DNA of 64,000 nt from Plantibacter sp. Leaf314 (GTDB taxonomy: Bacteria > Actinomycetota > Actinomycetes > Actinomycetales > Microbacteriaceae), in the NCBI RefSeq assembly GCF_001423185.1, contig NZ_LMOB01000003.1, positions 454,230-518,229 of the forward strand, given 5' to 3'. Shown one piece after another: positions 5,126 through 44,150 of this stretch. The translations under genes were made by a program, and so were the position numbers. Numbering within the stretch: the stretch's first letter is position 1; every line of letters starts with the position of its first letter. Below the pieces are notes generated by a model. The model worked only from the letters and a program-made list of their open reading frames with translations, did no database searches and was not told the DNA's origin.

Positions 5126-5138
5126 TACCATTGGTGGG
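5126..5138 (+). promoter_or_regulatory. Leaderless promoter -10 of dnaX
   Basis: TACCAT (5126-5131) ends exactly six bases before the GTG start at 5138, so transcription should begin at or next to the start codon. No purine-rich ribosome site lies in front of the GTG. The same geometry recurs at several other genes in the window. Confidence 0.6.
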
Positions 5139-7729
5139 TGGTCACTGCTCTGTATCGCCGGTATCGGCCCGAGACGTTCGCCGAGATGATCGGTCAGGCG
5201 CAGGTCACCGATCCCCTCATGACGGCCCTGCGCACCAACCGGGTCAATCACGCCTATCTGTTCAGTGGTCCGCGAGGCTGCGGCAAGACGACGTCGGCCC
5301 GCATCCTGGCCCGTTGCCTCAACTGCGCCGAGGGCCCGACCGACACCCCCTGCGGTGTCTGCGCGAGCTGTGTCGACCTCTCACGCGACGGCTCGGGCTC
5401 GCTCGACGTCGTCGAGATCGACGCCGCCAGCCACAACGGTGTCGACGACGCCCGCGACCTCCGCGAGCGCGCGATCTTCGCGCCGGCCCGCGACCGCTAC
5501 AAGATCTTCATCCTCGACGAGGCGCACATGGTCACCCCGCAGGGCTTCAACGCGCTGCTGAAGATCGTGGAGGAGCCGCCGGAGCACGTGAAGTTCATCT
5601 TCGCGACGACCGAGCCCGACAAGGTGATCGGCACCATCCGTTCGCGCACCCACCACTACCCGTTCCGGCTCATCCCGCCGGCCCAGATGCTCGACTACGT
5701 GCAGCAGCTCTGCGACAGCGAGCACGTCGGCGTCGAGCCGGGCGTCCTGCCGCTCGTGGTCCGCGCCGGTGGCGGTTCGGCGCGCGACACCCTGTCGCTG
5801 CTCGACCAGCTGATGGCCGGCTCGGAGGGCGACTCGGTCGACTACGAACGTGCCGTCGCGCTGCTCGGCTACACGCACACCGCGCTGCTCGACGAGGTCG
5901 TCGACGCCCTCGCCGCGCGCGACTCCGGGGCCGCGTTCAGCACGGTCGACCGCGTCATCCAGACGGGACAGGACCCCCGACGCTTCGTCGACGACCTGCT
6001 CGAACGACTCCGCGACCTCATCGTCGTGGCCGCCACCGGGGAGAACGCGGCCGCCGTGCTGCGTGGTCTGCCCCAGGACGAACTCGACAAGATGCTCGGC
6101 CAGGCGCGTGCCTTCGGCATCGCCGAGCTCTCCCGCACGGCGGACGTCGTCAACGAGGCGCTCACGCAGATGACGGGCGCGACCTCGCCACGGCTCCACC
6201 TCGAACTCATGATGGCCCGCATCCTCGTCCCCGCGGCCGACGACTCCGCCCGCGGAGCGCTCGTCCGGGTCGAGCGCCTCGAGCGCCGCATCGGTGTCGA
6301 CGGTGTCGCAGCCGACCCCACCGCTACAGCGCCCTCGGCCTCGGTTCCGGCACCCGCCTCGAGCCCGGCCGTTCCGGCAGGGGCTCCGTCATCCGCACAG
6401 GCCCCGGCCCCCGCATCGTCTCCGGTCCCCGAGCCGGTCGACGCACGCGCAGCTGCCGCTCCCGCGCCGGTCGCCCCTCCGGCCCCGGCCGCGCCCCGCG
6501 TCGGCCCGGTCACGCTGCAGCTCGTCCGCGACGCGTGGCCGGAGATCGTCGCCCGGGTCGAGAAGGCCGACCGCAAGGCGTGGATGATCGTCGTCAACGC
6601 CCAGGTCGGTGGCTACTCCGACGACGAGGTCCTCACCCTCGTGTTCGCGAACAACAGCGACCTCAACGACTTCAAGGCACGCCACGCTCCGGGCACCGGG
6701 GTCGCCGAGGTGCTGCGCACCGCCGTGCTCGACGTCCTCGGCGTGCGGGTCAAGTACCTCGCCAAGGTCGCGGGTGCCGAGGAGCCCCCGGCGGTCCGCG
6801 CCGGTGCGGCGGCCTCGGGCCCCACCTCGTCGGAGCCGTCCGCCTGGTCGACGCCGAGCCTGCCGCAGAACGTCCCAGCGCCCGCAGCGCCGTCGTCGAC
6901 CGGCGGCCCCGCCTCCGCGGCGTCCCGCCCGTCGTGGCCGACGGTCGCGCCGGCCGGAGGAGCGGACGCCGCGTCCTCGTCCGAGCCCGCTGCCGGCGGT
7001 TCCGGCGTCGCCGTCATCGAGTCGCCGGCTCCGTCGCCTGCGGCGCCGGTCGAGGAGCGGGCCTCGGTCTCGTCCTCCTCCTGGGCGACGGTCGCCCCGC
7101 CGGCCGACGAGCCCGAGCCGTCCTCGGTCCCTGAGCCTGTCGAAGGGCCCACGGCATCTCCGGCGCCTGCCTCCGCCACGCAGCCGTCTCCGGTCCGCGA
7201 GCCTGTCGAAGCGCCCACCTCCTCTCCGGCGCCTGCCTCGACGACACCACCGTCTCCGGTCCCTGAGCCTGTCGAAGGGCAGCCCACCCAGCCCACAGGA
7301 CCCGCAGCTTCCGCCCCGACGACCACGCCGCGCCAGCAGGCCGCGCCGTCGCGCCAGCAGGCGCCCGCCCGAGGTCCCGCCAACGGCGACGCCCTCGGCT
7401 CGCGGACCGTCACCTGGGACGTGGTCTCGATCCCGTCCGACGCGGACGCACCGCCGCCGGACGACGAGCCGCCGTACCCCGACCCCTACGACGCCCCGGC
7501 GTCCGCGGCGGCCCCCTCGGCTCCCGCCGCTCCGGCTCCGGCCGCTCCAGCCACCCCACCCGAGGCCGAGCGCCGGCAGCCGCTGGTCAAGATGCGTCAG
7601 GCGCCCCCGGCGTCGGCGGGCTCCCATCCGGCGGGCGACAACCGGTACGGCGAGAGCGTCGTCCGCGAGCTCCTCGGCGCCACATTCATCGAGGAGCAGC
7701 CGCACGAGCCGCGCTCCGGAGGGCGGTAG
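5138..7729 (+). CDS. dnaX: DNA polymerase III subunit gamma/tau
   Basis: Clamp-loader ATPase (863 aa). It carries Walker A GPRGCGKT (residues 44-51), a zinc-binding Cys cluster (C60, C63, C72, C75, C78), EIDAASHNGVDD, Walker B/DEAH (127-130) and an SRT sensor region, then domain III. Residues about 385-430 and 560-830 are Pro/Ala/Ser-rich linker; a small folded block (LVRDAWPEIVARVEKADRKAW to about 540) lies between. The linker contains three 22-residue tandem units carrying PEPVEG/REPVEA, encoded by the dispersed 22-bp DNA repeat. GTG start, leaderless. recR follows after 3 bases. Confidence 0.97.
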   Translation: MVTALYRRYRPETFAEMIGQAQVTDPLMTALRTNRVNHAYLFSGPRGCGKTTSARILARCLNCAEGPTDTPCGVCASCVDLSRDGSGSLDVVEIDAASHNGVDDARDLRERAIFAPARDRYKIFILDEAHMVTPQGFNALLKIVEEPPEHVKFIFATTEPDKVIGTIRSRTHHYPFRLIPPAQMLDYVQQLCDSEHVGVEPGVLPLVVRAGGGSARDTLSLLDQLMAGSEGDSVDYERAVALLGYTHTALLDEVVDALAARDSGAAFSTVDRVIQTGQDPRRFVDDLLERLRDLIVVAATGENAAAVLRGLPQDELDKMLGQARAFGIAELSRTADVVNEALTQMTGATSPRLHLELMMARILVPAADDSARGALVRVERLERRIGVDGVAADPTATAPSASVPAPASSPAVPAGAPSSAQAPAPASSPVPEPVDARAAAAPAPVAPPAPAAPRVGPVTLQLVRDAWPEIVARVEKADRKAWMIVVNAQVGGYSDDEVLTLVFANNSDLNDFKARHAPGTGVAEVLRTAVLDVLGVRVKYLAKVAGAEEPPAVRAGAAASGPTSSEPSAWSTPSLPQNVPAPAAPSSTGGPASAASRPSWPTVAPAGGADAASSSEPAAGGSGVAVIESPAPSPAAPVEERASVSSSSWATVAPPADEPEPSSVPEPVEGPTASPAPASATQPSPVREPVEAPTSSPAPASTTPPSPVPEPVEGQPTQPTGPAASAPTTTPRQQAAPSRQQAPARGPANGDALGSRTVTWDVVSIPSDADAPPPDDEPPYPDPYDAPASAAAPSAPAAPAPAAPATPPEAERRQPLVKMRQAPPASAGSHPAGDNRYGESVVRELLGATFIEEQPHEPRSGGR
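7126..7279 (+). repeat. Dispersed repeat captured in frame in dnaX, 66-bp period
   Basis: Copies of the 22-bp dispersed repeat lie at 7126-7147, 7192-7213 (variant CGCGAG...GCG) and 7258-7279. They are spaced exactly 66 bp, so each unit encodes 22 residues and stays in frame (VPEPVEG, VREPVEA, VPEPVEG). The bases between the copies are also similar (ACCTCTCCGGCGCCTGCCTC-type), showing tandem duplication of a whole unit. Confidence 0.85.
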
Positions 7730-7732
7730 GCC

Positions 7733-8332
7733 ATGTACGAGGGAATCGTCCAAGATCTGATCGACGAGTTCGGGCGACTGCCGGGCATCGGTCCGAAGTC
7801 GGCGCAGCGCATCGCGTTCCACATCCTCCAGACGGAGTCGTTCGACGTGTCGAAGCTCGCCGAGCTCCTCACCGTCGTGCGCGAGAAGGTGAAGTTCTGC
7901 GAGATCTGCGGCAACATCTCCGAGCAGAACCTGTGCAGTGTGTGCCGCGATCCACGGCGGAACCCGGCGCTCATCTGCGTCGTCGAAGAGCCCAAGGACG
8001 TCGTCGCCATCGAGCGCACACGTGAGTTCCGCGGGTTCTACCACGTGCTCGGTGGCGCCATCAGCCCCATCGACGGCGTCGGGCCCGACGACCTCAACAT
8101 CCGTCGACTCATGCAGCGTCTGGCCGACGGCACGGTCACCGAGGTCATCATCGCGACCGACCCGAACCTCGAGGGCGAAGCGACCGCCACCTACCTCAGC
8201 CGGCTGCTGCTCCCGATGGGGATCCGCATCACCCGACTCGCCTCCGGCCTGCCCGTCGGCGGTGATCTCGAGTACGCCGACGAGGTCACCCTCGGGCGCG
8301 CCTTCGAGGGCCGCACCGTCGTCAGCGGCTGA
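7733..8332 (+). CDS. recR: Recombination mediator RecR
   Basis: 199-aa protein of the RecFOR pathway; it loads RecA on gapped DNA. Helix-hairpin-helix N-terminus ([18 protein letters not shown]), a four-Cys zinc site ([19 protein letters not shown], about residues 57-75) and a Toprim domain ([12 protein letters not shown]). Length is normal for the family. GGAGG lies at the end of dnaX, and the gene is 3 bases from the dnaX stop. The usual ybaB/ebfC gene is not between them. Confidence 0.97.
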
Positions 8333-8380
8333 GCCGCCGGCCCACCCACCCGTTCACCCCAGCCCGCTCTGACGCCGGTC

Positions 8381-8460
8381 GACCCGTTCTCAGGAGTCGG
8401 CCGGTGTGTCGGGTTCGGCCGGCGTCGCCGCGCCGGGGAACTCCTGAGTTGGGGCGGGTC
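8381..8460. repeat. Long bipartite inverted repeat between recR and GNAT gene
   Basis: GACCCG-tt-CTCAGGAGT (8381-8397) is mirrored by ACTCCTGAG-ttgggg-CGGGTC (8440-8460). The loop of about 42 bases itself contains GGCCGG/CCGGCG complementarity. It lies between two convergent genes, so it may end transcription from both sides, although there is no T tract on either strand. No second copy was noticed in this window. Confidence 0.55.
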
Positions 8461-8469
8461 CGGCGGGGG

Positions 8470-9222
8470 TCAGGCGTCGGCGGACGGCGAGGGCCACTCG
8501 GCCACCACCGGCCGCACCGAGAGCTGCCGACCGACGGCGGAGAAGCCGAGCTTCCTCGCGACCGCGCGCGATCCGGGGTTCGTGTCGGCCGCCCGCCACT
8601 GGGGGAGCAGGCCGTGCTCGAGCGCGTGCTCGACGGCGGTCGAGGCGAGCCGGGTCGCGAGACCGGTGCCGCGAGCCTCCGGTGCCGTCAGTGCCGTGAC
8701 GTGTGCGACCCCGAGCGGCCAGGAGCGGTAGCCGGCGACAGCCAGTACGCGTCCGTGGTCGCGTACGGAGAACAGGGGAGAGGTGATCCCGAAGATCCCG
8801 CTCTCCGAGGCCTCATCGTCGCCCACCTTCGACAGCATCGACTCGATGGCGGGGTCGCTCGCCTTGCTCGCCACCACGTCGATCTCCTCGGCGGGCGTGA
8901 ACCGGCCGGGCAGCAGGTAGTCGAGGGTCGCCGGGCCGAGGACCTCGGCGATCTGCATCCGGGATCGCAGGAAGTCGACGGTGCCGACGTTCTTCGGCGA
9001 CTCGTCCTCGATCGCCAGTCGTTTCGCCGTGTCCTCGTCGGGCACGATCGCGAGGGCGCTGCCGGCGATCTCGACGACGCCGATCCAGCCGGGCGGGCAG
9101 GCCATCGACCCGGCGTTCACGACGACCGCGACGCGTCCCGGGGTGAACCGTGCGGTCGGCGAGGCGAGCCCCTGCCAGAGGCGCCGCACCGTCGCGAGCA
9201 CCCGAGCGTCGTCCTGTTGCAT
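8470..9222 (-). CDS. GNAT-family N-acetyltransferase
   Basis: 250 aa. The C-terminal half is a Gcn5-related acetyltransferase fold: VAHVTALTAPEARGTGLATRLAS (the R/Q-x-x-G-x-G/A acetyl-CoA loop, here RGTGLA) followed by AADTNPGSRAVARKLGFSAVGRQLSV. The N-terminal half (about 1-120) is a family-specific extension. The acyl acceptor is unknown. The ATG lies six bases after TAGGGT, the leaderless geometry. Convergent with recR and divergent from lysC. Confidence 0.85.
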   Translation of the reverse strand: MQQDDARVLATVRRLWQGLASPTARFTPGRVAVVVNAGSMACPPGWIGVVEIAGSALAIVPDEDTAKRLAIEDESPKNVGTVDFLRSRMQIAEVLGPATLDYLLPGRFTPAEEIDVVASKASDPAIESMLSKVGDDEASESGIFGITSPLFSVRDHGRVLAVAGYRSWPLGVAHVTALTAPEARGTGLATRLASTAVEHALEHGLLPQWRAADTNPGSRAVARKLGFSAVGRQLSVRPVVAEWPSPSADA

Positions 9223-9228
9223 GCGCCA

Positions 9229-9234
9229 ACCCTA
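9229..9234 (-). promoter_or_regulatory. Leaderless -10 of the GNAT gene
   Basis: On the minus strand TAGGGT is followed by six bases (TGGCGC) and then the ATG at 9222. No Shine-Dalgarno is present. Confidence 0.5.
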
Positions 9235-9381: not shown

Positions 9382-10668
<1,287 letters not shown>

Positions 10669-10673
10669 CGCCG

Positions 10674-12739: not shown

Positions 12740-12752
12740 TAGACTGCTCTGG
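12740..12752 (+). promoter_or_regulatory. Leaderless -10 of mqo
   Basis: TAGACT (12740-12745) then six bases (GCTCTG) and the GTG start. No ribosome site is present. Confidence 0.6.
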
Positions 12753-14218
12753 TGACCGAAACCATCGACGTAGCCCTCATTGGTGGTGGCATCATGAGCG
12801 CCACGCTCGCCGCCCTCATCCACCAGGTGCAGCCTGATTGGAAGGTGGAGGTCTACGAGCGCCTGAGCGACGTCGCGCTCGAGAGCTCCAACCCGTGGAA
12901 CAACGCGGGAACGGGCCACGCGGCGCTGTGCGAGCTGAACTACATGCCGCAGGACGCCCACGGGAAGGTCGACCCGGCCAAGGCCATCGGCATCAACGAG
13001 CAGTTCCAGCTCAGCCGCCAGTTCTGGGCGCACCTCGTGGAAGAGGGGCTGCTGGGCGAGCCCGACACGTTCATCAACCCCACGCCGCACATGACCTTCG
13101 TCCGTGGCGAGAAGGACGTCGAGTACCTGCGGAAGCGGTACGAGGCGCTCAAGGACGAGCCCCTGTTCGCCGGCATCGAATTCTCCGAAGACCCCGCGGT
13201 CATCGCCGAGTGGGCACCGCTGCTCATCAACCGTCGTGCCGTCGGCGAGCGCATCGCCGCCACGCGGATCACGGCGGGCACCGACGTCGACTTCGGTTCG
13301 CTCACCCACAAGCTCTTCGATGCGGCACCGTCCGCCCACGTGCGGTTGAACCACGAGGTCCGCTCGCTCAAGCGCCTGAAAGACGGCACCTGGCGGATCC
13401 GGGGTCGGCAGACGCTCGGCCGCTCGCCGATGGAGATCAACGCCCGCTTCGTGTTCGTCGGAGCCGGCGGATGGGCGCTCAAGCTGCTGCAGAAGTCCGG
13501 CATCCCCGAGATCAAGGGCTACGGCGTCTTCCCGATCGGCGGCCAGTTCCTCCGCACCGACAACCCCGCGGTCGTGTCGAAGCACCAGGCCAAGGTCTAC
13601 AGCCAGGCCTCGGTCGGCGCCCCGCCCATGTCGGTCCCGCACCTCGACACCCGCGTGGTCGACGGTCAGGCGAGCCTCCTCTTCGGCCCGTACGCGACCT
13701 TCAGCCCGAAGTTCCTCAAGCGTGGTTCCATCCTCGACCTCGTCACCCAGGTCCGCCCGCACAACCTCTTCCCGATGCTGGCGGTCGCGAAGGACAACCC
13801 GAGCCTGATCACCTACCTCGTCGGGCAGCTCCTGCAGTCCCGCTCGCAGAAGATGGAGAGCCTGCGGGAGTTCCTGCCGACGGCGAAGGACGAGGACTGG
13901 TACCTCATCGAGGCCGGCCAGCGCGCTCAGGTCATGAAGAAGGACAAGGACAAGGGCGGCGTCCTGCAGTTCGGGACCGAGGTCATCACCGGCGCCGACG
14001 GCACGATCGCAGGCCTCCTCGGAGCGTCGCCCGGTGCCTCGACCGCCGTCCCGATCATGCTCGACGTGCTGCGCAAGTGCTTCCCCGACCGCATGACGGC
14101 GTGGGAGCCACGGCTGCGCGAGATGATCCCGACGTACGGCTCGACGCTGAACGACGTCCCCGCCAGGGCGGCCGAGGTGCTCGAAAGCACGGCTGAGGCG
14201 CTCGACATCTCGCTCTGA
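12752..14218 (+). CDS. mqo: Malate:quinone oxidoreductase
   Basis: Membrane-associated FAD enzyme (488 aa) oxidising L-malate to oxaloacetate and passing electrons to the quinone pool; a TCA-cycle step. FAD-binding N-terminus VALIGGGIMSATLAALI, then NPWNNAGTGHAALCELNYMP, a strong Mqo signature, and C-terminal LLGASPGASTAVPIMLDVL. Length is typical of the family. GTG start with no leader. Single-gene unit between the SGNH and tdk genes. Confidence 0.97.
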   Translation: MTETIDVALIGGGIMSATLAALIHQVQPDWKVEVYERLSDVALESSNPWNNAGTGHAALCELNYMPQDAHGKVDPAKAIGINEQFQLSRQFWAHLVEEGLLGEPDTFINPTPHMTFVRGEKDVEYLRKRYEALKDEPLFAGIEFSEDPAVIAEWAPLLINRRAVGERIAATRITAGTDVDFGSLTHKLFDAAPSAHVRLNHEVRSLKRLKDGTWRIRGRQTLGRSPMEINARFVFVGAGGWALKLLQKSGIPEIKGYGVFPIGGQFLRTDNPAVVSKHQAKVYSQASVGAPPMSVPHLDTRVVDGQASLLFGPYATFSPKFLKRGSILDLVTQVRPHNLFPMLAVAKDNPSLITYLVGQLLQSRSQKMESLREFLPTAKDEDWYLIEAGQRAQVMKKDKDKGGVLQFGTEVITGADGTIAGLLGASPGASTAVPIMLDVLRKCFPDRMTAWEPRLREMIPTYGSTLNDVPARAAEVLESTAEALDISL

Positions 14219-14299: not shown

Positions 14300-14312
14300 T
14301 AAGCTTGCCTGG
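14300..14312 (+). promoter_or_regulatory. Leaderless -10 of tdk
   Basis: TAAGCT (14300-14305), six bases (TGCCTG), then the GTG at 14312. This is the same spacing as at dnaX and mqo. Confidence 0.6.
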
Positions 14313-14962
14313 TGGCGAAACTCTACTTCCGTTACGGGGCGATGAACTCCGGCAAGAGCACCGCCCTGCTCCAGGCTGCCTTCAACTACGAGGAACGCGG
14401 TCACCGCGTCCTCCTCGCCAAGCCGTCGCTCGACACCAAGGGCGACGCCGCCATCGTGAGTCGCCTGGGCGTCACGCGAGACGCCGACTTCCTGCTCGGT
14501 CCGGACGACGACGCGGTCCAGGTGTTCGCCGAGCACCGCCGACGGGTCGTCGCGGAGACCGGCGCGGACGTCAGCTGCCTCCTCGTCGACGAGGCGCAGT
14601 TCCTGCACGCCGGGCAGGTCGACGGCCTCCTGCGGATCGCCCTTCTGGAAGGCATCCCCGTCCTCGCCTACGGCATCCGCACCGACTTCCAGACCGTCGC
14701 CTTCCCCGGGAGCCGCCGCCTCCTCGAGGTGTCGCACAGCCTCGAGGAACTGAAGACGATCTGCCGCTGCGGACGCAAGGCGATCTTCAACGGGCGCCGC
14801 TTCGGCGACACCTTCGTCTTCGACGGCGACCAGGTCGCCATCGACGGCACCACGGTCACCTACGAATCGCTCTGCGGCGTCTGCTACCTGCAGGAGTCCG
14901 GCGGCCGACTCTCCTCCACCTCTCCCACCGTCCGACCCATCAGCGAAGGATCACACGCATGA
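14312..14962 (+). CDS. tdk: Thymidine kinase
   Basis: Salvage enzyme phosphorylating thymidine (216 aa). P-loop GAMNSGKST (residues 9-17), catalytic Glu94 in LVDEAQFLH, AYGIRTDFQ, and a zinc-finger-type CRCGRKAIF with a second Cys pair CGVCY near the C-terminus. Type II (TK1-like) kinase by these motifs. GTG start, leaderless. The stop overlaps the next ATG (ATGA). Confidence 0.95.
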   Translation: MAKLYFRYGAMNSGKSTALLQAAFNYEERGHRVLLAKPSLDTKGDAAIVSRLGVTRDADFLLGPDDDAVQVFAEHRRRVVAETGADVSCLLVDEAQFLHAGQVDGLLRIALLEGIPVLAYGIRTDFQTVAFPGSRRLLEVSHSLEELKTICRCGRKAIFNGRRFGDTFVFDGDQVAIDGTTVTYESLCGVCYLQESGGRLSSTSPTVRPISEGSHA

Positions 14963-16682: not shown

Positions 16683-16765
16683 CTGCGGTGCGGCTCCTGA
16701 TCGGTCGTCGGGTCGTGCCGTCGGCACCTCGCAATCGTAGGCCATGGGGTGCCCGAGACCCGGGC

Positions 16766-21701: not shown

Positions 21702-24254
21702 CTAACAGCTGGTCTTGGAGACCGTCACGGTGACCTTGCCGTCCTTGCGCGCCGCCGTCCCCGCCGGGGGATCGACCCCCGTCACCTTCGGGGTCGTGGC
21801 TGCCGGATCGACCGCACACTTCTGGCCCACATTCGCGAACCCGGCGCTCTGGAGAGCCGCCTTGGCCTCGTCGTAACTCGCGGCGCCGCTCACGTCGGGG
21901 ACGGTCGCCAGGAGGCCGTTGCTGGTGTAGACGGTCACGATGGAGCCCTTCGGCACCGTACCCGAGGGGTTCGTGCTCGCGGCCTGGCCTGCCGGCAGCG
22001 CGGAGTCACCGGCGCCGCCGTTCGCGAAGCCGAAGCCGGCATCCTCGAGCAGCTTCTGCGCCTCTTCGATCGTCTTGCCTGCGACGTCGGGCACCTGGAC
22101 CGACTGGCCGTTGATCAGCGACGGATCCGGGTCGCCGAACGCCGAGCCGCCGAACTTGGCGTTGGCGGTCAACATGATCCGTGGCCAGATCTTGTGTCGG
22201 ATCGTGGCCACCTGGCCGGCGTCGAAGTACGTGCGGCGGAGGTTGACGTGGCCGGTCGCATTGAAGACACCGACGATCGTCGCGGCCTGGGTGCTGGCAC
22301 CGCTCATCCACGTGGCCTCGTTGTTGTCGGTCGTGCCCGTCTTGCCGATGAGCGGGATGCCGTCGCCGGTGCGCGACGAGCTCGTCGTGCCGCCGTTGAA
22401 GGTGGCCTGCAGGGCTACGTTGGCGGTGGCCGCGACGTTCGCCTCGAGGCCGACGCGGCAGTTGGCCGCCGGGACCGGGATCTCGGTGCCGTCGGGCTTC
22501 ACGACGCGGTCGATCGCGATCGGGTCGCAGGTGGTGCCGCCGGACGCGAAGGTCGCGAAGGCGGTCGCCATGCTGAGCGGCGCGACCTCGTTGGTACCGA
22601 GGACGGTCGCGGGGGACTGGAGCAGCGGCCCGCCGTCTGCGCGGTGGACGCCCATCGACTCGGCCGTCTTGCGGATGCCGCAGAGGTCGAGCTGCTTCGC
22701 CATCGCGATGAAGCCGGTGTTGATGGACAGCTTCGTCGACTGGAGTGCGGTGTACTGGCCACCGTTGCCACCCTCGTCGTTGCCGGGGTTCCAGTCGGAG
22801 CCGGCGTACACGGTGCCACCGTCGGCGCAGGAGTCCTTGAACGTGCCCCACGGCGATCGCTTGCGGCCGTCGACGCCCTCGTTCAGGCCGTGGCCTTCCT
22901 TGAGCCACTCGGCCAGCGTGAAGGTCTTGTACGTCGATCCGGGCTGGAAGCCGGTGGACCCGCCGTAGTCGACGTCGGTGTTGTAGTTGACGGCCGAGTA
23001 GTTCGACCCGAGGGCGAGGGTGTCCTCGTCGCTCGCATAGTCCTTGTTCTGCGCCATGGCGAGGATGCGCCCGGTTCCGGGCTGGACCGTCACCGCCACC
23101 GCGCCGATGTCGAGCTGGTCGCTCGCGTGCGGGATGTAGGCGTCGAGCGCGGTCTGTGCCGAGTACTGCAGGTCGAGGTCGAGGGTCGTGAACACGTCGT
23201 AGCCGCCGCGGTTGAAGGCGGCCCAGCGCTCGTCCTCGGTCGCACCGAAGATCGGGTTGTTCTGGAACACCCGCGTGACGTAGTCGCAGAAGTAGCCCGC
23301 TCCCGGGCTCACGTTCACGGCCGTGATGCACCCGGTGCTCGACGGCGTGATCGTCGGGGTGATGACCGTGACGATCGCCGCGTCGTACTGCTCCTGCGTG
23401 ATCTTCTTCTCGGCGAGCATCTTGCCGAGGATGTAGTCGCGCCGGTCCTTCGTCTTGCTGTAGCCGTCGGCCGCGCCGTTCACCTCGTTCTCGGGCTGGT
23501 CGAAGCGCAGGTTCGACGGGTTGTTCACCACGGCGAGCAGCGTCGCCGCCTGCTCGAGGGTGAGGTTCGCCGCCGTCGTGTTGAAGTAGTAGTTGGCGGC
23601 GGCCTCGATGCCGTACACGCGCCCGCCGAAGCCGGTGATGTTCAGGTAGCCGCGCAGGATGTCCTGCTTGCCGTAGCGCTTCTCCAGGCCGATGGCCATG
23701 CGCATCTCCTTGAGCTTGCGCTCCGGAGTCGTCTTCGTCGCCTCTTCGTACGCGGCCTTCATCTTGGCCTCGTCGGTGATGGCCTCGGCCTTCTGCACGA
23801 GCACGTTCTTCACGTACTGCTGCGTGATCGACGAACCACCCTGCAGATCGCGCCCCGTCGCGCTGATCGCGACGGCTCGGATCGTTCCCGTGAGGTCGAC
23901 GCCGCCGTGCTCGTAGAAGCGCGGGTCTTCAGCAGCGATCGCCGCGTCCTTGACGAACTGGTTGATCTGGTCCCAGCCCACCTCGATGCGGTTCTGCTGG
24001 TAGAAGGACGCGAGCAGCTGCGGGTTGCCCGCACTGTCGGTCGCGTAGATGTTGGACTTCTGCGCCAGCTCGTCGAGGGCCAGGTAGTCGGGGAGACCGT
24101 CGAACACGTTGATCGTGCTGTTGGTCGCGATCCCGGTGACGGCGAGGGCCGGCGTGACCGTCGCGGTGACGAGGACACCCGCCGCGACGCTCAGCCCGAG
24201 GAAGCCCAGGAGGCCGCCGAGCACACCGGTGGCCGTGCGATGTTGTTGAGGCAT
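21702..24254 (-). CDS. Class A penicillin-binding protein with two PASTA domains
   Basis: 850-aa bifunctional peptidoglycan synthase. One membrane helix (residues about 12-38); glycosyltransferase family 51 domain with AAEDPRFYEHGG (catalytic Glu109) and GGSSITQQYVKN (139-150); transpeptidase with STYK (Ser440), SIN (510-512) and KTG (638-640). Two C-terminal PASTA domains (about 720-781 and 784-848; PDVAGKTIEEAQ, PDVSGAASYDEAK), which in relatives bind muropeptides or beta-lactams. TAGCAT six bases before the ATG marks a leaderless promoter. Paralogous to the next gene upstream, close to colinear through residue 700. Confidence 0.95.
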   Translation of the reverse strand: MPQQHRTATGVLGGLLGFLGLSVAAGVLVTATVTPALAVTGIATNSTINVFDGLPDYLALDELAQKSNIYATDSAGNPQLLASFYQQNRIEVGWDQINQFVKDAAIAAEDPRFYEHGGVDLTGTIRAVAISATGRDLQGGSSITQQYVKNVLVQKAEAITDEAKMKAAYEEATKTTPERKLKEMRMAIGLEKRYGKQDILRGYLNITGFGGRVYGIEAAANYYFNTTAANLTLEQAATLLAVVNNPSNLRFDQPENEVNGAADGYSKTKDRRDYILGKMLAEKKITQEQYDAAIVTVITPTITPSSTGCITAVNVSPGAGYFCDYVTRVFQNNPIFGATEDERWAAFNRGGYDVFTTLDLDLQYSAQTALDAYIPHASDQLDIGAVAVTVQPGTGRILAMAQNKDYASDEDTLALGSNYSAVNYNTDVDYGGSTGFQPGSTYKTFTLAEWLKEGHGLNEGVDGRKRSPWGTFKDSCADGGTVYAGSDWNPGNDEGGNGGQYTALQSTKLSINTGFIAMAKQLDLCGIRKTAESMGVHRADGGPLLQSPATVLGTNEVAPLSMATAFATFASGGTTCDPIAIDRVVKPDGTEIPVPAANCRVGLEANVAATANVALQATFNGGTTSSSRTGDGIPLIGKTGTTDNNEATWMSGASTQAATIVGVFNATGHVNLRRTYFDAGQVATIRHKIWPRIMLTANAKFGGSAFGDPDPSLINGQSVQVPDVAGKTIEEAQKLLEDAGFGFANGGAGDSALPAGQAASTNPSGTVPKGSIVTVYTSNGLLATVPDVSGAASYDEAKAALQSAGFANVGQKCAVDPAATTPKVTGVDPPAGTAARKDGKVTVTVSKTSC

Positions 24255-24260
24255 GGATCG

Positions 24261-24266
24261 ATGCTA
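24261..24266 (-). promoter_or_regulatory. Leaderless -10 of PASTA PBP gene
   Basis: Minus-strand TAGCAT, then CGATCC (6 bases), then ATG at 24254. The paralogue has TACCTT-CGATCCT-ATG, so the discriminator is conserved between the copies. Confidence 0.55.
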
Positions 24267-24374: not shown

Positions 24375-26717
24375 TCAATCCGGAGGGCCGTTGCCGGTGC
24401 CGTTCCCGGTGCCGTTGTTGCCGTTCCCGGGCGCGGCCGGCTCACCGGGTTCACCCGTGCCGCCGGTGCCGCCCTCGTCGCCCGGTGCCGGTGTCGGCGC
24501 CTGGGTGGGTGCCTGCGTCGGGTCGGCGGTCGGTGCTGGCGACGGGGTCGCATCCTCTCCGCTGCCACCTGATCCGTCGCCCTGCAGCGTGGCGCGGTCG
24601 GCCTCAGGGAAGTCGCCACCCGGATACTTCGCCAGGGCGGCCGTCATGATCTCCGGCCAGATGAGGTGGCGCATCGACGCGACCTGCGTGCCGTCGATGT
24701 AGGTGTCGCGGAGGTTGACGTGCCCGGAGACGTTGAACGTGCCGACGACCGTCGCGACGGTCGTGCTCGCGCCGCTCATCCAGGTCGCCTCGGCGTTGTC
24801 GGTCGTCCCGGTCTTGCCGATCAGTTCGCCGACCCCGTCGGTGCGGCTGCCGGAGGCCGAGGCGGTGCCGTTCGACACCACCCCCTGGAGGACGTCGTCG
24901 GCGGCGGCCGCCACCTTGGCGTCGACGGACTGGCGGCAGTTCGCCGAGGGGACCTCGGCGGTCGAGCCGTCGGGCTTCGTGATCGAGTCGATGGCGATCG
25001 GGTCGCAGGTCTTGCCGCCGGCGGCGAGGGTCGCGAACGCCGTCGCCATGCTCAACGGAGCGACCTCGTTCGTGCCGAGCACCGTGGCCGGGGAGTTGTT
25101 CAGCGGTGCTCCGTCGGCGCGGTGCACGCCCATCGACTCGGCCGTCTTGCTGATGTCGCAGAGGTCGAGTTCCTGCGCCATCGCGATGAAGGCCGTGTTG
25201 ATCGACTGTTGCGTGGCCCGACGGACCGTGTACGAACCGGATTCACCCTCGTCGTTCCGTGGGCTCCATCCGGCCTCGGCCTGTTCCGTCCCGCCCGGCA
25301 CACAACTGTTGGTGAAGGTGCCCCAGTCGGATCGGCGGTTCGCGTTGATCGACTCGTTCACACCCTTGCCCGCCTTCAGCCAGTCGGTGAGGGTGAAGAT
25401 CTTGTACGTCGACCCGGGCTGGAACCCGGCCGATCCGCCGTAGGCCTGATCGGTGTTGTAGTTGATGGCGCTGTAGTTGGCGCCCGTCGCGAGCACGTCG
25501 GGGTCCTGTGAGTAGTCCTTGTTCTGCGCCATCGCGAGGATGCGTCCCGAACCGGGCTGCACGCTCACCGAGACGGCGCCGAGGTCGGCCTCGGTGGTGG
25601 TCTTCGGCACGTACTCGTCGATCGCGGCCTGTGATGCGCCCTGCAGATCGAGGTCGAGGGTCGTGAAGACGCTGTACCCGCCGCGCTTGAAGTTCGTCCA
25701 GCGCTCCTCCTGGGTGGCACCGAAGATCTCGTTGTTCTGCAGCACATTGGTGACGTAGTCGCAGAAGTAGGCCGCCGACGCGGCAGCCGAGCAGCCGGTG
25801 ACCGGCGGCACGATCGTCGGTGTCACCGGCACCGCGATGGCGGCGTCATGCTGCTCCTGGGAGATCTTCGCCTCCTTGAGCATCTGGTCGAGGACGTAGT
25901 CCCGGCGGGTCTTCGTCAGGGCGTATCCGTTCGCGGCCCCGTTGTCGGCGTTGTCCGGTCTGTCGATGCGGAGGTTCTCGGGGTTGTTGACGATCGCGAG
26001 GAGCGTCGCCGCCTGTTCCAGGGTGAGGTTCGCGGCGGTGGTGTTGAAGTAGTAGTTCGCGGCGGCCTCGATCCCGTAGACCCGACCGCCGAACCCGGAG
26101 ATGTTGAGGTACCCGCGGAGGATGTCCTCCTTGCCGTACGTCTTCTCCAGACCGATCGCGAGCCGCATCTCCTTGAGCTTGCGCTCCGGGGTCGTGGCCG
26201 TCGCCTCCTCGTAGGCCTTCTTGCTCTCGGCCGCATCGGGGATCGCCTCGGCCTTCTGCACGAGCACGTTCTTCACGTACTGCTGCGTGATCGAGGAGCC
26301 ACCCTGCGTGGACCCGCCGGCGGCGTTGTTGACCACGGCGCGGACCGTGCCCGCGAGGTCGATGCCGCCGTGGTCGAAGAAGCGCGGGTCTTCGGCCGAG
26401 ACGGCCGCGTCCTTCGCGAACTGGGAGATCTGGTCCCAGCTGTCCTCGATGCGGTTCTGGTCGTAGAAGGAGGCGAGGAGCACCGGGTTGCCGGCGGAGT
26501 CCTTCGCGTAGATGCTCGACTTCTGGGCGAGCGAGTCGAGCTGGAGGTAGTCGGGGAGACCGTCGAAGACGGTGATGCCCGTGGACGTGGCGAGGCCCGT
26601 CATCGCGATGGCGGGGGTGACCGCAGCGGTCGCGAGGACACCGGCGGCGACACTCAGGCCGACGAAGCCGAGGACGCTCTGCACGACCGTCTTCGCGGGG
26701 GTACGTGGTTCAGGCAT
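24375..26717 (-). CDS. Class A penicillin-binding protein with low-complexity tail
   Basis: 780-aa paralogue of the neighbouring PBP. Single N-terminal helix, GT51 with AAEDPRFFDHGG (Glu109) and GGSSITQQYVKN, transpeptidase STYK (Ser436), SIN (505-507), KTG (635-637). In place of PASTA domains it ends in about 65 residues rich in Pro, Ala, Thr, Gly and Asn (TQAPTQAPTPAP; GNGNNGTGNGTGNG). TACCTT lies seven bases before the ATG. All catalytic motifs are intact in both copies, so both are probably active; the tails imply different localisation or regulation. Confidence 0.95.
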   Translation of the reverse strand: MPEPRTPAKTVVQSVLGFVGLSVAAGVLATAAVTPAIAMTGLATSTGITVFDGLPDYLQLDSLAQKSSIYAKDSAGNPVLLASFYDQNRIEDSWDQISQFAKDAAVSAEDPRFFDHGGIDLAGTVRAVVNNAAGGSTQGGSSITQQYVKNVLVQKAEAIPDAAESKKAYEEATATTPERKLKEMRLAIGLEKTYGKEDILRGYLNISGFGGRVYGIEAAANYYFNTTAANLTLEQAATLLAIVNNPENLRIDRPDNADNGAANGYALTKTRRDYVLDQMLKEAKISQEQHDAAIAVPVTPTIVPPVTGCSAAASAAYFCDYVTNVLQNNEIFGATQEERWTNFKRGGYSVFTTLDLDLQGASQAAIDEYVPKTTTEADLGAVSVSVQPGSGRILAMAQNKDYSQDPDVLATGANYSAINYNTDQAYGGSAGFQPGSTYKIFTLTDWLKAGKGVNESINANRRSDWGTFTNSCVPGGTEQAEAGWSPRNDEGESGSYTVRRATQQSINTAFIAMAQELDLCDISKTAESMGVHRADGAPLNNSPATVLGTNEVAPLSMATAFATLAAGGKTCDPIAIDSITKPDGSTAEVPSANCRQSVDAKVAAAADDVLQGVVSNGTASASGSRTDGVGELIGKTGTTDNAEATWMSGASTTVATVVGTFNVSGHVNLRDTYIDGTQVASMRHLIWPEIMTAALAKYPGGDFPEADRATLQGDGSGGSGEDATPSPAPTADPTQAPTQAPTPAPGDEGGTGGTGEPGEPAAPGNGNNGTGNGTGNGPPD

Positions 26718-26825
26718 AGGATCGAAGGTAAGCGGGGAAACTGTGAGCGAGCTTCACCCGGTGTTCGCCACGTCCGTCCCCTGCGCATCCGCCTCACTGT
26801 GTGGAGCGCCCGATCGAGGAGAGAC

Positions 26826-33479: not shown

Positions 33480-33492
33480 TACGATCGACGGG
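33480..33492 (+). promoter_or_regulatory. Leaderless -10 of lacI-type gene
   Basis: TACGAT (33480-33485), six bases CGACGG, GTG start. Confidence 0.55.
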
Positions 33493-34571
33493 TGACTGAC
33501 GCGTCGAACGATCCCAGCCCGCGCGGCGCCCGTCGGGTGACCGCCGCGATGGTCGCGGAGCGTGCAGGGACGTCGGTCGCGACCGTGTCGCTCGTCGCCA
33601 ACGGCAAGGACGCCGGCCATGTCTCGGCGCGGAACGCCGAGCGGGTCCGTCGGGCGATCGCGGAGCTCGGGTACGTCGCCGACCACGCTGCCCGGGCGCT
33701 TGCCAGCGGATCGAGCAACCTCGTCGTCTTCGTCACCCCGGATGCCTCGAACCCGTACTTCGGCGCGGTCATCCGCGGGCTCCGTGAGGGGCTCGGCGAC
33801 ACCTACCAGCTCCTCGTCTCGGTGACGGGGGAGGGCGACGTCCCCACCGCCGCAGCACTCGGACGGCTGGCCGCGCTCCGGCCGGCCGGGGTCGTGGTCG
33901 ACGCTCCGAGTGAGGCCTTCCTCGACGAGTTGCGGCTCGACACTCCACTCGTCCTCCTCGACGCGCCTCGGCTTTCCGCTTCGACGGTCGAGGCGGCTTC
34001 GGGTGCTCCGTCGCCGGACCGCCGCGCCGTCTCGGTCGACTTCGACCTCCTCGGCGGGGTGCGCGCGCTCCTCGACCACCTGCATGTGCTCGGGCACCGC
34101 CAGCTCGGCTACCTCGGTGGGCGGACGGCGACCGACACCTTCCGCCTCCGAAGGCTGCTCCTCGAGCGGGAGGCCGCGCTCCGCGGGATGCGGGTGCATG
34201 CCGACGACCGGGCGGAGAGCATCATCGACCTGGCCGCGGCGGCGGAGGCGTTCGTCGACAGCTGGCCGCGGTGGCGCGACGCCGGGGTGACGGCGCTCGT
34301 CTGCGCCACCGACACGCATGCCTACGGGGTGCTGCAGTCGGCGCGGGCGATGGGTATGCCGGTGCCCGGCGAACTCGCCGTGGTCGGGTTCGACGACCTC
34401 GCCTCGTCCGTCGTCAGCGATCCGCCGCTCACGAGTGTGCGGTTGCCCGGTGAGGCGCTCGGTCGTGCCGGGGCCGAGCAACTCCTCGCCCAGATCGAGG
34501 GCCGGACGGCGGCACCGGCGCCCGTGATCGCCGCGGACCTCGTCGTGCGGGCGTCGACGATCGGACGCTGA
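33492..34571 (+). CDS. LacI-family repressor of the nucleoside/ribose operon
   Basis: 359 aa. N-terminal HTH preceded by about 12 extra residues: VTAAMVAERAGTSVATVSLVANGKDAGHVSARNAERVRRAIAELGYVADHAARALASG, the normal LacI DNA-binding and hinge region. Periplasmic-binding-like effector domain (VFVTPDASNPYFGAVIRGLREGL; AVVGFDDLASSVVSDPPLTSVRLP). Divergent from nucleoside hydrolase/MFS/rbsK and separated by two AAGCGCTT operators, so it probably represses that operon, with ribose or a nucleoside as inducer (inferred). Confidence 0.93.
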   Translation: MTDASNDPSPRGARRVTAAMVAERAGTSVATVSLVANGKDAGHVSARNAERVRRAIAELGYVADHAARALASGSSNLVVFVTPDASNPYFGAVIRGLREGLGDTYQLLVSVTGEGDVPTAAALGRLAALRPAGVVVDAPSEAFLDELRLDTPLVLLDAPRLSASTVEAASGAPSPDRRAVSVDFDLLGGVRALLDHLHVLGHRQLGYLGGRTATDTFRLRRLLLEREAALRGMRVHADDRAESIIDLAAAAEAFVDSWPRWRDAGVTALVCATDTHAYGVLQSARAMGMPVPGELAVVGFDDLASSVVSDPPLTSVRLPGEALGRAGAEQLLAQIEGRTAAPAPVIAADLVVRASTIGR

Positions 34572-34732: not shown

Positions 34733-34745
34733 TACGCTCGCCGCA
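34733..34745 (+). promoter_or_regulatory. Leaderless -10 of the Tad ATPase gene
   Basis: TACGCT (34733-34738), six bases CGCCGC, ATG. Confidence 0.5.
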
Positions 34746-35779
34746 TGTCCGAACGTTTCGTCGTCTCCGTGCCGCCCGACACCGCCCCACCCGACCCACC
34801 GGGGGCGGCCGACGAGGCCGAAGCCACCCGCGCGGACGAGTCCCGCGGGGTCACGGCGCTCGCCGATTTCGGCGCCCTCGCGCCCTACCTCGCCGACCCG
34901 GGGGTGACCGACCTCTTCGTGAACGGGACGTCCGGCCTCTGGCTCGACCACGGCGCCGGCCTCGTCCGCGAAGCCGGATGGACGTCCGACGAGGCGACCA
35001 TCCGTGCGCTGGCCATCCGCCTCGTGGCGCGCGGCGGACGGCACGTCGACGAGGCGACCCCGTGCGTCGACGTCCGGCTGCAGGACGGCATCCGTGTCCA
35101 CGTGGTGCTGCCGCCGGTCTCCACGAGGGGCACCCTGCTGTCCATCCGGGTGCCTCGCGATGAGGCGCTGGGATTCGAAGCCCTGCAGTCCGTCGGCATG
35201 TTCCCGTCCACCGTCGCCGAACTCCTGCGTGAGGCCGTGGCCACGCGCGTGAACATCCTCGTCACCGGCGCCGGGGGATCCGGCAAGACGACCCTGCTGG
35301 GTGCCCTGCTCGGGCTCGCGCCACCGGCTGAACGGCTCGTCGTCATCGAGGACGTCGCCGAGCTCCGGATCCTCCACCCGCACGTCGTCGCACTCCAGTC
35401 CCGCCAGGCGAACCTCGAGGGCGCAGGCGGTATCGACCTCGAGCGCCTCCTACGCGAGGCGCTCCGCATGCGGCCCGACCGCCTCGTCCTCGGCGAATGT
35501 CGAGGTCCGGAGGTGCGGGAGTTGCTCTCGGCGCTCAACACCGGCCACGACGGCGGCGCCGGCACGCTCCACGCGAACTCGCTCACGGACGTCCCCGCCA
35601 GGCTCGAAGCGCTCGGTGCGCTCGCCGGCATGAGCCAGGAGGCCGTCGCGCGTCAGGCGACGAGCGCCATCGGGCTCATCGTCCATCTCGCTCGGCTTCC
35701 GGCCGGGAGTCAGGTGGTCGCCGTCGGACGGCTCGTGCTCGACGAACGGGATCGTCTCGCGGTCGAGGAGTTGCCGTGA
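34745..35779 (+). CDS. tadA: Tad/Flp pilus assembly ATPase (CpaF/TadA)
   Basis: Secretion ATPase (344 aa) powering export of Flp pilin or related substrates. An N-terminal domain (about 40-150, FGALAPYLADPGVTDLFVNG) precedes Walker A GAGGSGKT (175-182), an Asp box (VVIEDVAEL), Walker B-like RLVLGECRGPEV, and a His box TGHDGGAGTLHANS. It starts at 34745 with a -10 six bases before. It resembles the mycobacterial Rv3659c type in length and place. Overlaps the next gene (GTGA). Confidence 0.93.
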   Translation: MSERFVVSVPPDTAPPDPPGAADEAEATRADESRGVTALADFGALAPYLADPGVTDLFVNGTSGLWLDHGAGLVREAGWTSDEATIRALAIRLVARGGRHVDEATPCVDVRLQDGIRVHVVLPPVSTRGTLLSIRVPRDEALGFEALQSVGMFPSTVAELLREAVATRVNILVTGAGGSGKTTLLGALLGLAPPAERLVVIEDVAELRILHPHVVALQSRQANLEGAGGIDLERLLREALRMRPDRLVLGECRGPEVRELLSALNTGHDGGAGTLHANSLTDVPARLEALGALAGMSQEAVARQATSAIGLIVHLARLPAGSQVVAVGRLVLDERDRLAVEELP

Positions 35780-38945: not shown

Positions 38946-38951
38946 GACAGG

Positions 38952-42200: not shown

Positions 42201-42832
42201 GCGAGGGAGCGCGGCCCCGCGGGTTGTTCATCACCCTCGAGGGCGGAGACGGTGTCGGCAAGTCGACGCAGGCGAGCCTGCTGAGCGACTGGTTCGAGCA
42301 GCAGGGTCGCACCGTCGTCCGCACCCGCGAACCGGGCGGGAGCGATCTCGGGGTCGAGATCCGCGAGATCGTGCTGCACCATCGCGGCGACATCTCCCCG
42401 CGTGCCGAGGCGCTGCTGTACGCCGCGGACCGTGCCCACCACATCGCCACCGTCGTGCGTCCGGCACTCGCCCGCGGCGAGATCGTGTTGCAGGACCGCT
42501 ACCTCGACTCCTCCGTCGCCTACCAGGGCAGCGGACGGGTCCTCGACGCGGCGCAGATCCGGGGCATCTCGCTGTGGGCCGCGGAGGGCCTGCTCCCCGA
42601 CGTCACCGTGCTCCTCGACCTGGACGTCGCCGTCGCCCGAGGTCGGCTCGACAACGCCAACAAGCGGTTCGACCGGCTGGAGGCTGAGGCGCAGGACTTC
42701 CACACCCGCGTGCGCGAATCGTTCCTGGCCCTCGCGGCAGCGGAACCGGAGCGGTTCCTCGTCGTGGACGCCGCGCTGCCGCCCGAGGAACTCGCGGCCG
42801 ACATCCGCGAGCGGATCGCGCCACTCCTCTGA
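42197..42832 (+). CDS. tmk: Thymidylate kinase
   Basis: 211 aa. dTMP to dTDP. P-loop LEGGDGVGKST (14-24), DR(Y/X) motif LQDRYLDSSVAYQGSGR, REPGGSDLG. Overlaps topA by 4 bases, so it is coupled. The synteny topA-tmk-holB is usual in Microbacteriaceae. Confidence 0.95.
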   Translation: MSEGARPRGLFITLEGGDGVGKSTQASLLSDWFEQQGRTVVRTREPGGSDLGVEIREIVLHHRGDISPRAEALLYAADRAHHIATVVRPALARGEIVLQDRYLDSSVAYQGSGRVLDAAQIRGISLWAAEGLLPDVTVLLDLDVAVARGRLDNANKRFDRLEAEAQDFHTRVRESFLALAAAEPERFLVVDAALPPEELAADIRERIAPLL

Positions 42833-42840
42833 TCAGACCC

Positions 42841-42915
42841 GGTCCCTGAGCCTGTCGAAGGGCGGCCCGGTGTCTGGAAGCGTGAGCTCGGCACTTCGAC
42901 AAGTTCAGTGACCGG
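42841..42915. repeat. Dispersed repeat pair downstream of tmk
   Basis: A consensus copy lies at 42841-42862, and a degenerate reverse copy (CTTCGACAAGTTCAGTGACC core) at 42894-42915; together they face each other as an imperfect inverted repeat. Confidence 0.7.
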
Positions 42916-42943
42916 TGGGCGGCTCAGTGACCGGTGGGCGGCT
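42906..42943 (+). repeat. 19-bp tandem duplication
   Basis: CAGTGACCGGTGGGCGGCT occurs twice in succession, followed by CAGTGAT, at the edge of the degenerate dispersed repeat and about 60 bases upstream of the holB promoter. Confidence 0.85.
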
Positions 42944-43004
42944 CAGTGATCGCCCGTCGGCTCGGATACCCGCACGACCGCCAGCCGCCGTCGGTGGCGC
43001 CCGG

Positions 43005-43017
43005 TATCGTTGACCCA
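43005..43017 (+). promoter_or_regulatory. Leaderless -10 of holB
   Basis: TATCGT (43005-43010), six bases TGACCC, ATG. Confidence 0.55.
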
Positions 43018-44150
43018 TGGCTTCCTGGACCGACTTGACGGGTCAACGCGACGCGATCGAGTTGTTGCAGGCCGCGTCGGACCCGGTCGAACCCAAAGGC
43101 CTCACCCACGCCTGGCTCATCACCGGTCCGCCCGGTTCCGGCCGGTCGACCCTGGCCTATGCGTTCGCTGCGGCACTCCTCAGCCGAGAGCCCGGGGGAG
43201 ACGACGTCACCCGTCGGCAGGTCGAAGCGCGCACCCACCCCGACCTCTCCGCGCTGAGCACCGACCGCGTCATCATCACGATCGACGAGGTCCGCGACCT
43301 GGTCCGCAACGCCTACCGTGCACCGTCCGTGGCTCGTTTCCGCGTCATGGTCGTGGAAGACGCCGACCGCATGACCGAGCGCACCTCAAACCTGCTGCTG
43401 AAGTCCCTCGAGGAGCCGCCCAGCAGCACGATCTGGGTCCTGTGCGCGCCCAGCGAGGCGGACCTCCTGCCGACGATCCGGTCCCGTGTGCGCTCCGTCC
43501 GGCTCGGCGTGCCGACCATCGACGACGTCGCGGAGCTGCTGGAACGACGCGACGGCGTGGCGCACGACATCGCGGAGCGCGCGGCCCGTGAAGCTCAGAG
43601 CCACGTGGGGATGGCCCACCGTCTGGCGACCGATCCCGGAGCCCGGCAACGTCGTGAGTCCACCCTGCGGGCCGTCCTCGACATCCGCAGTGCGGGTCAG
43701 GCCGTCGTCACGGCCGGGCGGCTCCTGGAACTCGCCGGAGACGACGCGAAGGCCTACACCTCGCTGCGCGACGAGGCCGAGCGCGAGAGCACGCTGCGGT
43801 CGCTCGGCGTCGAGCCCGGCCAATCCGTCCCTCCCGCCCTCCGGTCGCAGGTGCGGGCGATGGAGGAGGACCAGAAGCGGCGCGCGACACGGAGTCTCCG
43901 CGACGGGCTCGACCGCATCATGGTCGACCTGCTGTCGCTCTATCGCGACATCGTGCTCCTCCAGCTGGGACACGACGCCACGATCATCAACCGGGAATTG
44001 CGTCCGGAACTCGAGGATGCCGCTCGGCGGACGACGCCGGCGGTTACGATCGATACCTTGGAGGCGATCTCCGTCGCCCGAACACGAATCGAAGGGAACG
44101 TCGCCCCAGCGCTGGCCTTGGAGGCCATGCTCGTGTCGGCGGTCCGGTAG
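43017..44150 (+). CDS. holB: DNA polymerase III subunit delta'
   Basis: Clamp-loader subunit (377 aa). GPPGSGRST (38-46) is a Walker A with Arg in place of Lys, and the second SRC motif reads SRV, as expected of a non-hydrolysing delta' subunit. VVEDADRMTERTSNLLLKSLEEPPSSTIWVLCAPSEADLLPTIRSR is highly characteristic. The next gene starts 10 bases later. Confidence 0.94.
   Translation: MASWTDLTGQRDAIELLQAASDPVEPKGLTHAWLITGPPGSGRSTLAYAFAAALLSREPGGDDVTRRQVEARTHPDLSALSTDRVIITIDEVRDLVRNAYRAPSVARFRVMVVEDADRMTERTSNLLLKSLEEPPSSTIWVLCAPSEADLLPTIRSRVRSVRLGVPTIDDVAELLERRDGVAHDIAERAAREAQSHVGMAHRLATDPGARQRRESTLRAVLDIRSAGQAVVTAGRLLELAGDDAKAYTSLRDEAERESTLRSLGVEPGQSVPPALRSQVRAMEEDQKRRATRSLRDGLDRIMVDLLSLYRDIVLLQLGHDATIINRELRPELEDAARRTTPAVTIDTLEAISVARTRIEGNVAPALALEAMLVSAVR

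Follow-up and report, generated by a model that had tools for sequence, protein, structure and literature searches.

Ten genes in a 64-kb stretch of the Plantibacter sp. Leaf314 genome (hereafter the window; G000:C3:454230-518229) carry a TANNNT hexamer that ends exactly six bases before an ATG or GTG start codon, an arrangement abbreviated here as TANNNT-N6-RTG (N6 being the six intervening bases and R being A or G). Very probably, these boxes are part of promoters from which the housekeeping RNA polymerase makes leaderless transcripts, and a subset of them, including those of dnaX and holB, is probably switched by the DNA-damage regulator PafBC while its mRNAs would be leaderless too. The underlying rule was already known from other actinobacteria and is confirmed here; the added value lies in the DNA-damage-type subset.

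According to this proposal, TANNNT would act as the –10 element of the housekeeping polymerase, and a discriminator six or seven bases long would make the first base of the start codon (A or G) also the first base of the transcript, so that the ribosome would initiate on a 5′-terminal AUG or GUG without the help of a Shine-Dalgarno sequence. In the subset with dnaX and holB, a GTCRG word at a fixed distance upstream of the box would constitute the –26 element of PafBC (the RecA-NDp promoter type), and PafBC would probably activate these promoters in response to a build-up of single-stranded DNA, again yielding leaderless mRNAs. We infer the start site, translation from the 5′ end, PafBC binding and induction by damage from the sequence, along the lines set out below.

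TANNNT boxes peak at six bases before start codons

The genome measures 3.96 Mb in three contigs, and its nearest named dnaX relatives are those of Plantibacter (98–99% identity over the first 120 residues). Counts were made on a test sample consisting of the window and two 400-kb blocks of the same genome (864 kb in total, ca. 22% of the genome). Within this sample, our own codon-usage script, used instead of a published gene finder, called 768 genes that cover 90% of the 864 kb, and it overlooked some frames resembling real genes. The coding score with which this script picks its starts is blind to promoters.

When the 864 kb were scanned without any gene models, TANNNT was found before ATG 3, 107, 41, 14 and 13 times at spacings of five to nine bases, respectively, and 0–18 times at all spacings other than six and seven up to 20. 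The corresponding numbers before GTG were 13, 48, 13, 19 and 11, with 11–26 at spacings other than six, and the same scan revealed no spacing peak before CTG. Specifically, among the 64 patterns of the form XYNNNZ at six bases before ATG, TANNNT was the outlier, lying 29 standard deviations above its level at spacings 9–38 (next pattern: 2.0). A genome-wide enrichment of spacing six had been proposed as a check in the first-pass annotation, an earlier reading of the window made from the sequence alone, and it turned out strongly positive on the 864 kb, with its ATG peak of 107.

Restricting the counts to in-frame starts of called genes yielded 83 and 30 cases for ATG at six and seven bases, respectively, next to 35 and 7 for GTG and 3 and 1 for TTG (0–3 at other spacings), while ATG at six was found only 9 times and once in the other two frames. 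Compared to background, in-frame hits numbered 117 versus 10 at six, 37 versus 7 at seven and 11 versus 4 at eight, and the excess of box-bearing starts amounts to ca. 19% of the 768 called genes. The earlier claim of a spacing of exactly six therefore stands in that six is dominant (118 gene starts), but has to make room for seven, which is also used (37 gene starts) and to which orthologues can switch.

The 155 TANNNT-N6-RTG sites of the sample were distributed over called starts (118), intergenic regions (23) and gene interiors (14). The predictive value of the pattern for gene starts is at least 76%, a lower bound because several of the intergenic sites precede long frames that resemble missed genes. 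Out-of-frame ATG hits had suggested leaderless small frames, and the 30 intergenic leftovers included both short frames and genes that had been missed; some intergenic sites precede frames of 11–75 codons, which may encode leaderless small proteins. Degenerate boxes were also considered and rejected, as one-mismatch variants at six showed no clear excess save for GANNNT (49 versus 27). The latter looks like a Shine-Dalgarno remnant, because GANNNG and GANNNA rise alongside it.

The boxes behave as promoter elements

No consensus for a –35 element could be discerned in the 118 N6 promoters, and the best –35-like word among those tried, TTG at box–23, was present in 6 of the 155 box-bearing promoters (118 N6 and 37 N7) versus a mean of 1.2. 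The strongest bias between box and start in the N6 promoters was a G two bases after the box (box+7), which was found in 66% of the 118 N6 and in 72–73% of the 37 N7 promoters, compared to 29% of TANNNT words within genes and 41% of the remaining intergenic ones. The position of this G is tied to the box, whatever the distance to the start codon, which fits a contact made in the discriminator.

The 3′ end of the 16S rRNA has the usual anti-Shine-Dalgarno sequence. Matches to it of at least five bases preceded 3% of the N6 and 8% of the N7 genes, versus 26–33% in four classes of other genes and 5% at 742 internal RTG codons. The absence of Shine-Dalgarno sequences that had been noted for individual genes of the window thus holds in mass.

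Position within operons was examined for the 763 of 768 genes with an upstream neighbour, with gaps measured from the box start where a gene had a box and from the coding-score start otherwise. Only 12 of 221 genes lying at most 30 bases behind a same-strand gene were box-bearing, versus 141 of 542 (26%) that were not so close (40/134 at 31–100 bases, 24/142 beyond 100 bases and 77/266 in divergent position). This rarity inside operons is how transcription-start elements, and not ribosome sites, should behave.

The boxes are conserved in related loci

For dnaX, 80 related loci were collected, mostly from Microbacteriaceae, 79 of which had an alignable N-terminus, the exception being L012 with a match confined to the C-terminus. 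The box was present in all 79, at six bases in 67 and at seven in 12, with GTG as the start codon in 75. For the other genes we relied on 30 best-match loci each, own locus included, and found the box to be kept in 29 loci for mqo, 26 for the PASTA PBP (21 of them at seven), 22 for holB and 11 for tdk; some of these counts rest on doubtful starts (e.g. L140, L230 and L237), and the PBP loci may include paralogues. By eye, the upstream frame seems to run right up to tdk in many of the loci devoid of the box, a position in which no promoter would be expected.

A GTCRG element marks a DNA-damage-type subset

In the dnaX loci, GTCRG was located exactly 15 bases upstream of the T of the box (referred to as –15) in 68 of 79 cases and in at most two loci at any other offset, and it kept its distance to the box where the gap between box and start was seven instead of six. 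Among the 155 leaderless promoters of the sample, GTCRG occurred at –15 in eight, whereas the 33 offsets tried had 0.8 hits on average. Seven of the eight genes concerned are uvrA, uvrB, polA, gyrB/parE, a recQ-type helicase gene, dnaX and holB, while the eighth has no family. Compared to the motif TGTCRG-N10-TANNNT, dnaX (TGTCGG) matches exactly and holB (CGTCGG) deviates in the first base.

Searching the whole genome for GTCRG-N10-TANNNT-N6/7-RTG (further referred to as the cassette) returned 37 matches, and none with the pattern read backwards, although this zero is partly luck since relatives average ca. 2 per genome and ca. 3 would be expected here from other spacings. Most genes of this subset were named with NCBIfam, and 19 of the 37 belong to DNA repair, replication or topology, a class that reflects our own reading of the family names. 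Specifically, these are DnaQ-like, UvrA, UvrB, PolA, GyrB/ParE, LigA, UvrD-type helicase, XseA, AlkZ-like, Mfd, SprT-like, RadA, two RecQ-type, RecF, SbcD, exonuclease III, DnaX and HolB. The AlkZ-like, SprT-like and UvrD-type proteins were named by Pfam, and several proteins had been cut at 501 residues and so fell below curated cut-offs. Four borderline cases were left uncounted (oligoribonuclease, a MATE protein with a weaker DinF match, a weak FtsK and Dcm). The other 14 comprise NAD kinase-like, FadD, epoxide hydrolase, PepO-like, HemB, MFS, phosphodiesterase, Eis-like and MsbA-like ABC proteins, as well as five without family, including one 6-codon frame (unscanned) and one 60-codon frame (scanned with NCBIfam only).

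As a control, the 132 usable leaderless genes that lie outside the window and lack the element were sampled at random, and the 20 genes drawn were named with Pfam, which revealed no repair or replication gene among the 20 and three genes without any family. The functional range that the first-pass annotation had stressed is not wholly random, since dnaX and holB belong to the DNA-damage-element subset.

Irrespective of start codons, pairs of GTCRG and TANNNT in the 864 kb numbered 17 at N10 versus 1–8 at 12 other spacings. Nine of these 17 pairs were in leaderless arrangement (0–3 at other spacings), corresponding to ca. 8 of 13 after subtraction of the mean of the 12 spacings, and this share exceeds the 26% of box-bearing genes among those not close behind a same-strand gene. 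One of the leadered N10 cases (61 bases) is presumably dnaE, judging by its first residues.

A PafC-type gene and the spread of the cassette

Two adjoining WYL genes were found at C1:170000-178000, one of which encodes PF19187 HTH_PafC (4e-33) together with WYL and WCX domains. Its neighbour, with WYL and WCX only, was called PafB by position. Searching NCBIfam gave no match for either of these two proteins, and the genome contains seven WYL-domain matches in all. Frames resembling tatC, tatA, an FKBP-type protein gene and a tRNA methyltransferase gene surround these genes (L284 1833-7845), with the tatA- and tatC-like ones coming after them.

The cassette was encountered 1541 times in 60 Microbacteriaceae genomes, versus 122 for the control, and exceeded the control in 57 of them. 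Likewise, 59 genomes of the class yielded 1210 versus 154, again with 57 above control (the Leaf314 genome itself, G000, being counted in both sets). PF19187 was detected in 58 of the 60 family genomes, and the two genomes without it, G005 and G015, had no clear cassette excess (2 versus 4 and 2 versus 1, respectively).

Alternative explanations

The alternative that survives best, and that we still regard as unlikely, is that many transcripts begin 1–5 bases ahead of the start codon, chiefly those with a spacing of seven, which would leave a short leader. The choice of start site by RNA polymerase is not exact, 37 of the 155 box-bearing starts have their box at seven, and there is some surplus at eight (11 versus 4); the counts nevertheless drop steeply beyond seven. 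Moreover, Shell 2015 (PMC4633059) describes a +1 RTG as the efficient arrangement in mycobacteria.

It is slightly less probable still that GTCRG before dnaX and holB is not linked to PafBC but contributes weakly to promoters in general or is bound by a different regulator. The genome contains seven WYL-domain matches, the PBP promoters have a partly similar CAG word (by eye; see below), and two genomes, G010 and G046, possess PF19187 without motif excess. However, the word, its 10-base spacing and its orientation are those of the published TGTCGG-10N-TANNNT motif (PMC8151990), the gene content of the subset is that of DNA repair, and G005 and G015, the only 2 of 60 family genomes without PF19187, show no clear excess.

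Very improbable, finally, is that the boxes are chance TANNNT words chosen for fit and that the genes have leadered mRNAs from ordinary promoters located further upstream. Even though TANNNT is a loose motif, the starts were partly picked by eye, 6 of the 10 window starts differ from the coding-score start and ca. 10 of the 117 in-frame hits at six are expected by chance, this is countered by the sharp six/seven peak in the scan without gene models, the outlier position of TANNNT among 64 patterns, the in-frame ATG count (83 versus 9 and 1) and the dnaX box kept in 79/79 loci.

A number of observations do weigh against leaderless promoters with a PafBC-switched subset. In the scan without gene models, TTG rose slightly at six (11 versus 2–8 elsewhere), and the coding score picked the box start in no more than 104 of the 155 box-bearing genes. 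A C at –1 was dropped as start-site evidence, as it precedes 60% of the N6 genes and, nearly as often, 56% of other genes, which makes this initiation signature unspecific. With regard to the subset, GTCRG was kept in only 10 of the 30 holB loci (own included), and 18 of the 37 cassette genes, one of them the 6-codon frame, fall outside the DNA-repair count. The genomes G010 (4 versus 4) and G046 (3 versus 4) have a PF19187 match and no cassette excess, so that their regulon may be lost or degenerate; G005, G015, G010 and G046 are all small genomes. Furthermore, PF19187 is not exclusive to PafC, since 3 of 14 control genomes also contain a match above the cut-off.

Leaderless transcription, as put forward in the first-pass annotation, is the best reading of the boxes and is backed by the enrichment of spacing six over other spacings in the 864 kb. 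A broader proposal, which we make tentatively and to which we would give somewhat less than an even chance, is that the PafBC damage response of Actinomycetia runs largely on leaderless mRNAs. GTCRG-N10-TANNNT-N6/7-RTG would then be one rigid cassette, and 5′-terminal initiation would supply both the repair proteins and, through dnaX and holB, the clamp loader of the replicase upon damage.

Promoters of the window

All eight hexamers reported earlier at six bases could be retrieved from the sequence, as could the two seven-base cases at the second PBP gene and at the TetR-type regulator gene starting at 54731 (Table 1). The window has 10 TANNNT-N6-RTG sites, all 10 at in-frame starts of called genes and versus ca. 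2.6 expected by chance (mean over spacings 9–20), so that the earlier list had covered 8 of 10 and had overlooked the VanZ-like gene at 16727 and the TetR-like gene at 63072. TANNNT-N7 occurred at four sites, two at gene starts (54731+ and 26717–) and two before short intergenic frames. A LacI gene at 60711 had been mentioned as a similar case, and its CAGAAT at six is indeed present, but CANNNT at six amounted to only 34 versus 26 (z 1.5), leaving this case without statistical support. The names were in agreement with Pfam for GNAT, mqo, tdk, LacI, T2SSE-type ATPase, TetR and PBP, and with NCBIfam for dnaX, holB, tadA and PBP.

Table 1. Predicted leaderless promoters and –26 elements in the window (positions count from its first nucleotide).
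Feature	Sequence and start	Positions	Strand	Support or remark
dnaX	TACCAT 5126-5131, N6, GTG 5138	5126..5140	+	box at N6/N7 in 79/79 aligned related loci
dnaX –26 element, PafBC/RecA-NDp-type	TGTCGG, N10 to –10 box	5110..5115	+	GTCRG at –15 in 68/79 loci
GNAT gene	TAGGGT, N6, ATG 9222	9220..9234	–	sequence, Pfam
mqo	TAGACT, N6, GTG 12752	12740..12754	+	box in 29/30 family loci, own included
tdk	TAAGCT, N6, GTG 14312	14300..14314	+	box in 11/30 family loci, own included
VanZ-like gene	TACGAT, N6, GTG 16727	16725..16739	–	absent from earlier list
PASTA PBP	TAGCAT, N6, ATG 24254	24252..24266	–	box in 26/30 family loci (own included), 21 at seven
second PBP	TACCTT, N7, ATG 26717	26715..26730	–	sequence, Pfam
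lacI-type regulator	TACGAT, N6, GTG 33492	33480..33494	+	sequence, Pfam
tadA	TACGCT, N6, ATG 34745	34733..34747	+	candidate start; in-frame GTG 34679 upstream
holB	TATCGT, N6, ATG 43017	43005..43019	+	box in 22/30 family loci, own included
holB –26 element, PafBC/RecA-NDp-type	GTCGG, N10 to –10 box	42990..42994	+	GTCRG at –15 in 10/30 loci, own included
TetR-type regulator	TAGGGT, N7, ATG 54731	54718..54733	+	sequence, Pfam
TetR-like gene	TATCCT, N6, ATG 63072	63070..63084	–	absent from earlier list

The coding score coincided with the box start in 4 of the 10 N6 genes of the window (12752, 14312, 43017 and 63072) and preferred a start 7–16 codons later in five others (5138, 9222, 16727, 24254 and 33492). 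For tadA, its start lay 22 codons earlier than the box start. This gene offers three in-frame starts (34643, 34679 and 34745), the second of which is preferred by the coding score and the third by the box.

Upstream of the PASTA PBP gene (24254–) and its relatives (L122-L151), two further words were noticed by eye, namely a GTCGC-like word directly before the –10 box in many of them, and a TTTNCAG-like word of which the CAG is 13 bases upstream of the –10 box. These words possibly reflect a separate regulator or an extended –10 element. The PBP promoters themselves are not claimed as PafBC targets; GTCRG was present at –15 in 6 of the 30 loci, the own locus not being among these.

Comparison with known systems

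Zheng 2011 (PMC3160421) described TANNNT ca. 12 bases upstream, with a mean leaderless share of 19.2% in actinobacteria (range 2.3–29.8), and Cortes 2013 (PMC3898074) arrived at 26% of the genes that have a primary start site and saw no –35 motif, while a 5′-terminal RTG was necessary and sufficient in mycobacteria in Shell 2015 (PMC4633059). When placing actinobacterial starts, GeneMarkS-2 and StartLink allow for leaderless transcription (PMC9581028). The rule for start annotation derived in the first-pass annotation thus works but is not new, being a manual version of the principle that these gene finders already model.

As for the damage response, the mycobacterial RecA-NDp motif has been given as tTGTCRgtg-8 nt-TannnT (PMC5656591) and also as TGTCGG-10N-TANNNT (PMC8151990), with PafB contacting the –26 motif and PafC contacting sigma A (PMC11804915). 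HolB is listed at –1.8 in a pafBC deletion of Mycobacterium smegmatis (PMC5656591), and PMC2897130 covers a leaderless lexA as well as a RecA-NDp promoter inside a misannotated gene, which there has a leader. Within the parts of these papers that were covered, we found no statement of a leaderless PafBC regulon and no dnaX in it, and none of the literature titles listed dealt with such a regulon, which, given the incomplete coverage, is weak evidence of absence. The titles listed on leaderless genes of the Microbacteriaceae or of Clavibacter offered nothing relevant either.

The leaderless rule is of use for correcting the gene starts of Microbacteriaceae and for spotting genes missed by a simple caller. 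The cassette, in turn, is a searchable element of 30 bases that predicts a DNA-damage regulon from genomes without expression data, and it places the two clamp-loader genes dnaX and holB in that predicted regulon. This raises the question whether a mycobacterial-type damage response relies on leaderless translation.

Compared to the actinobacterial leaderless promoters known to date, those described here are alike in that TANNNT lies ca. 12 bases ahead of the start, a clear –35 element and a Shine-Dalgarno sequence are both missing and an ATG or GTG would form the 5′ end, and their share of ca. 19% of called genes is close to the published mean of 19.2%; they differ in nothing of kind, only in that they stem from Plantibacter-like Microbacteriaceae. 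With the mycobacterial RecA-NDp/PafBC system, the subset shares the element, its spacing and orientation to the –10 box, the repair genes and a PafC-type gene, whereas the 37 pattern matches found here stand directly at RTG, in leaderless arrangement.

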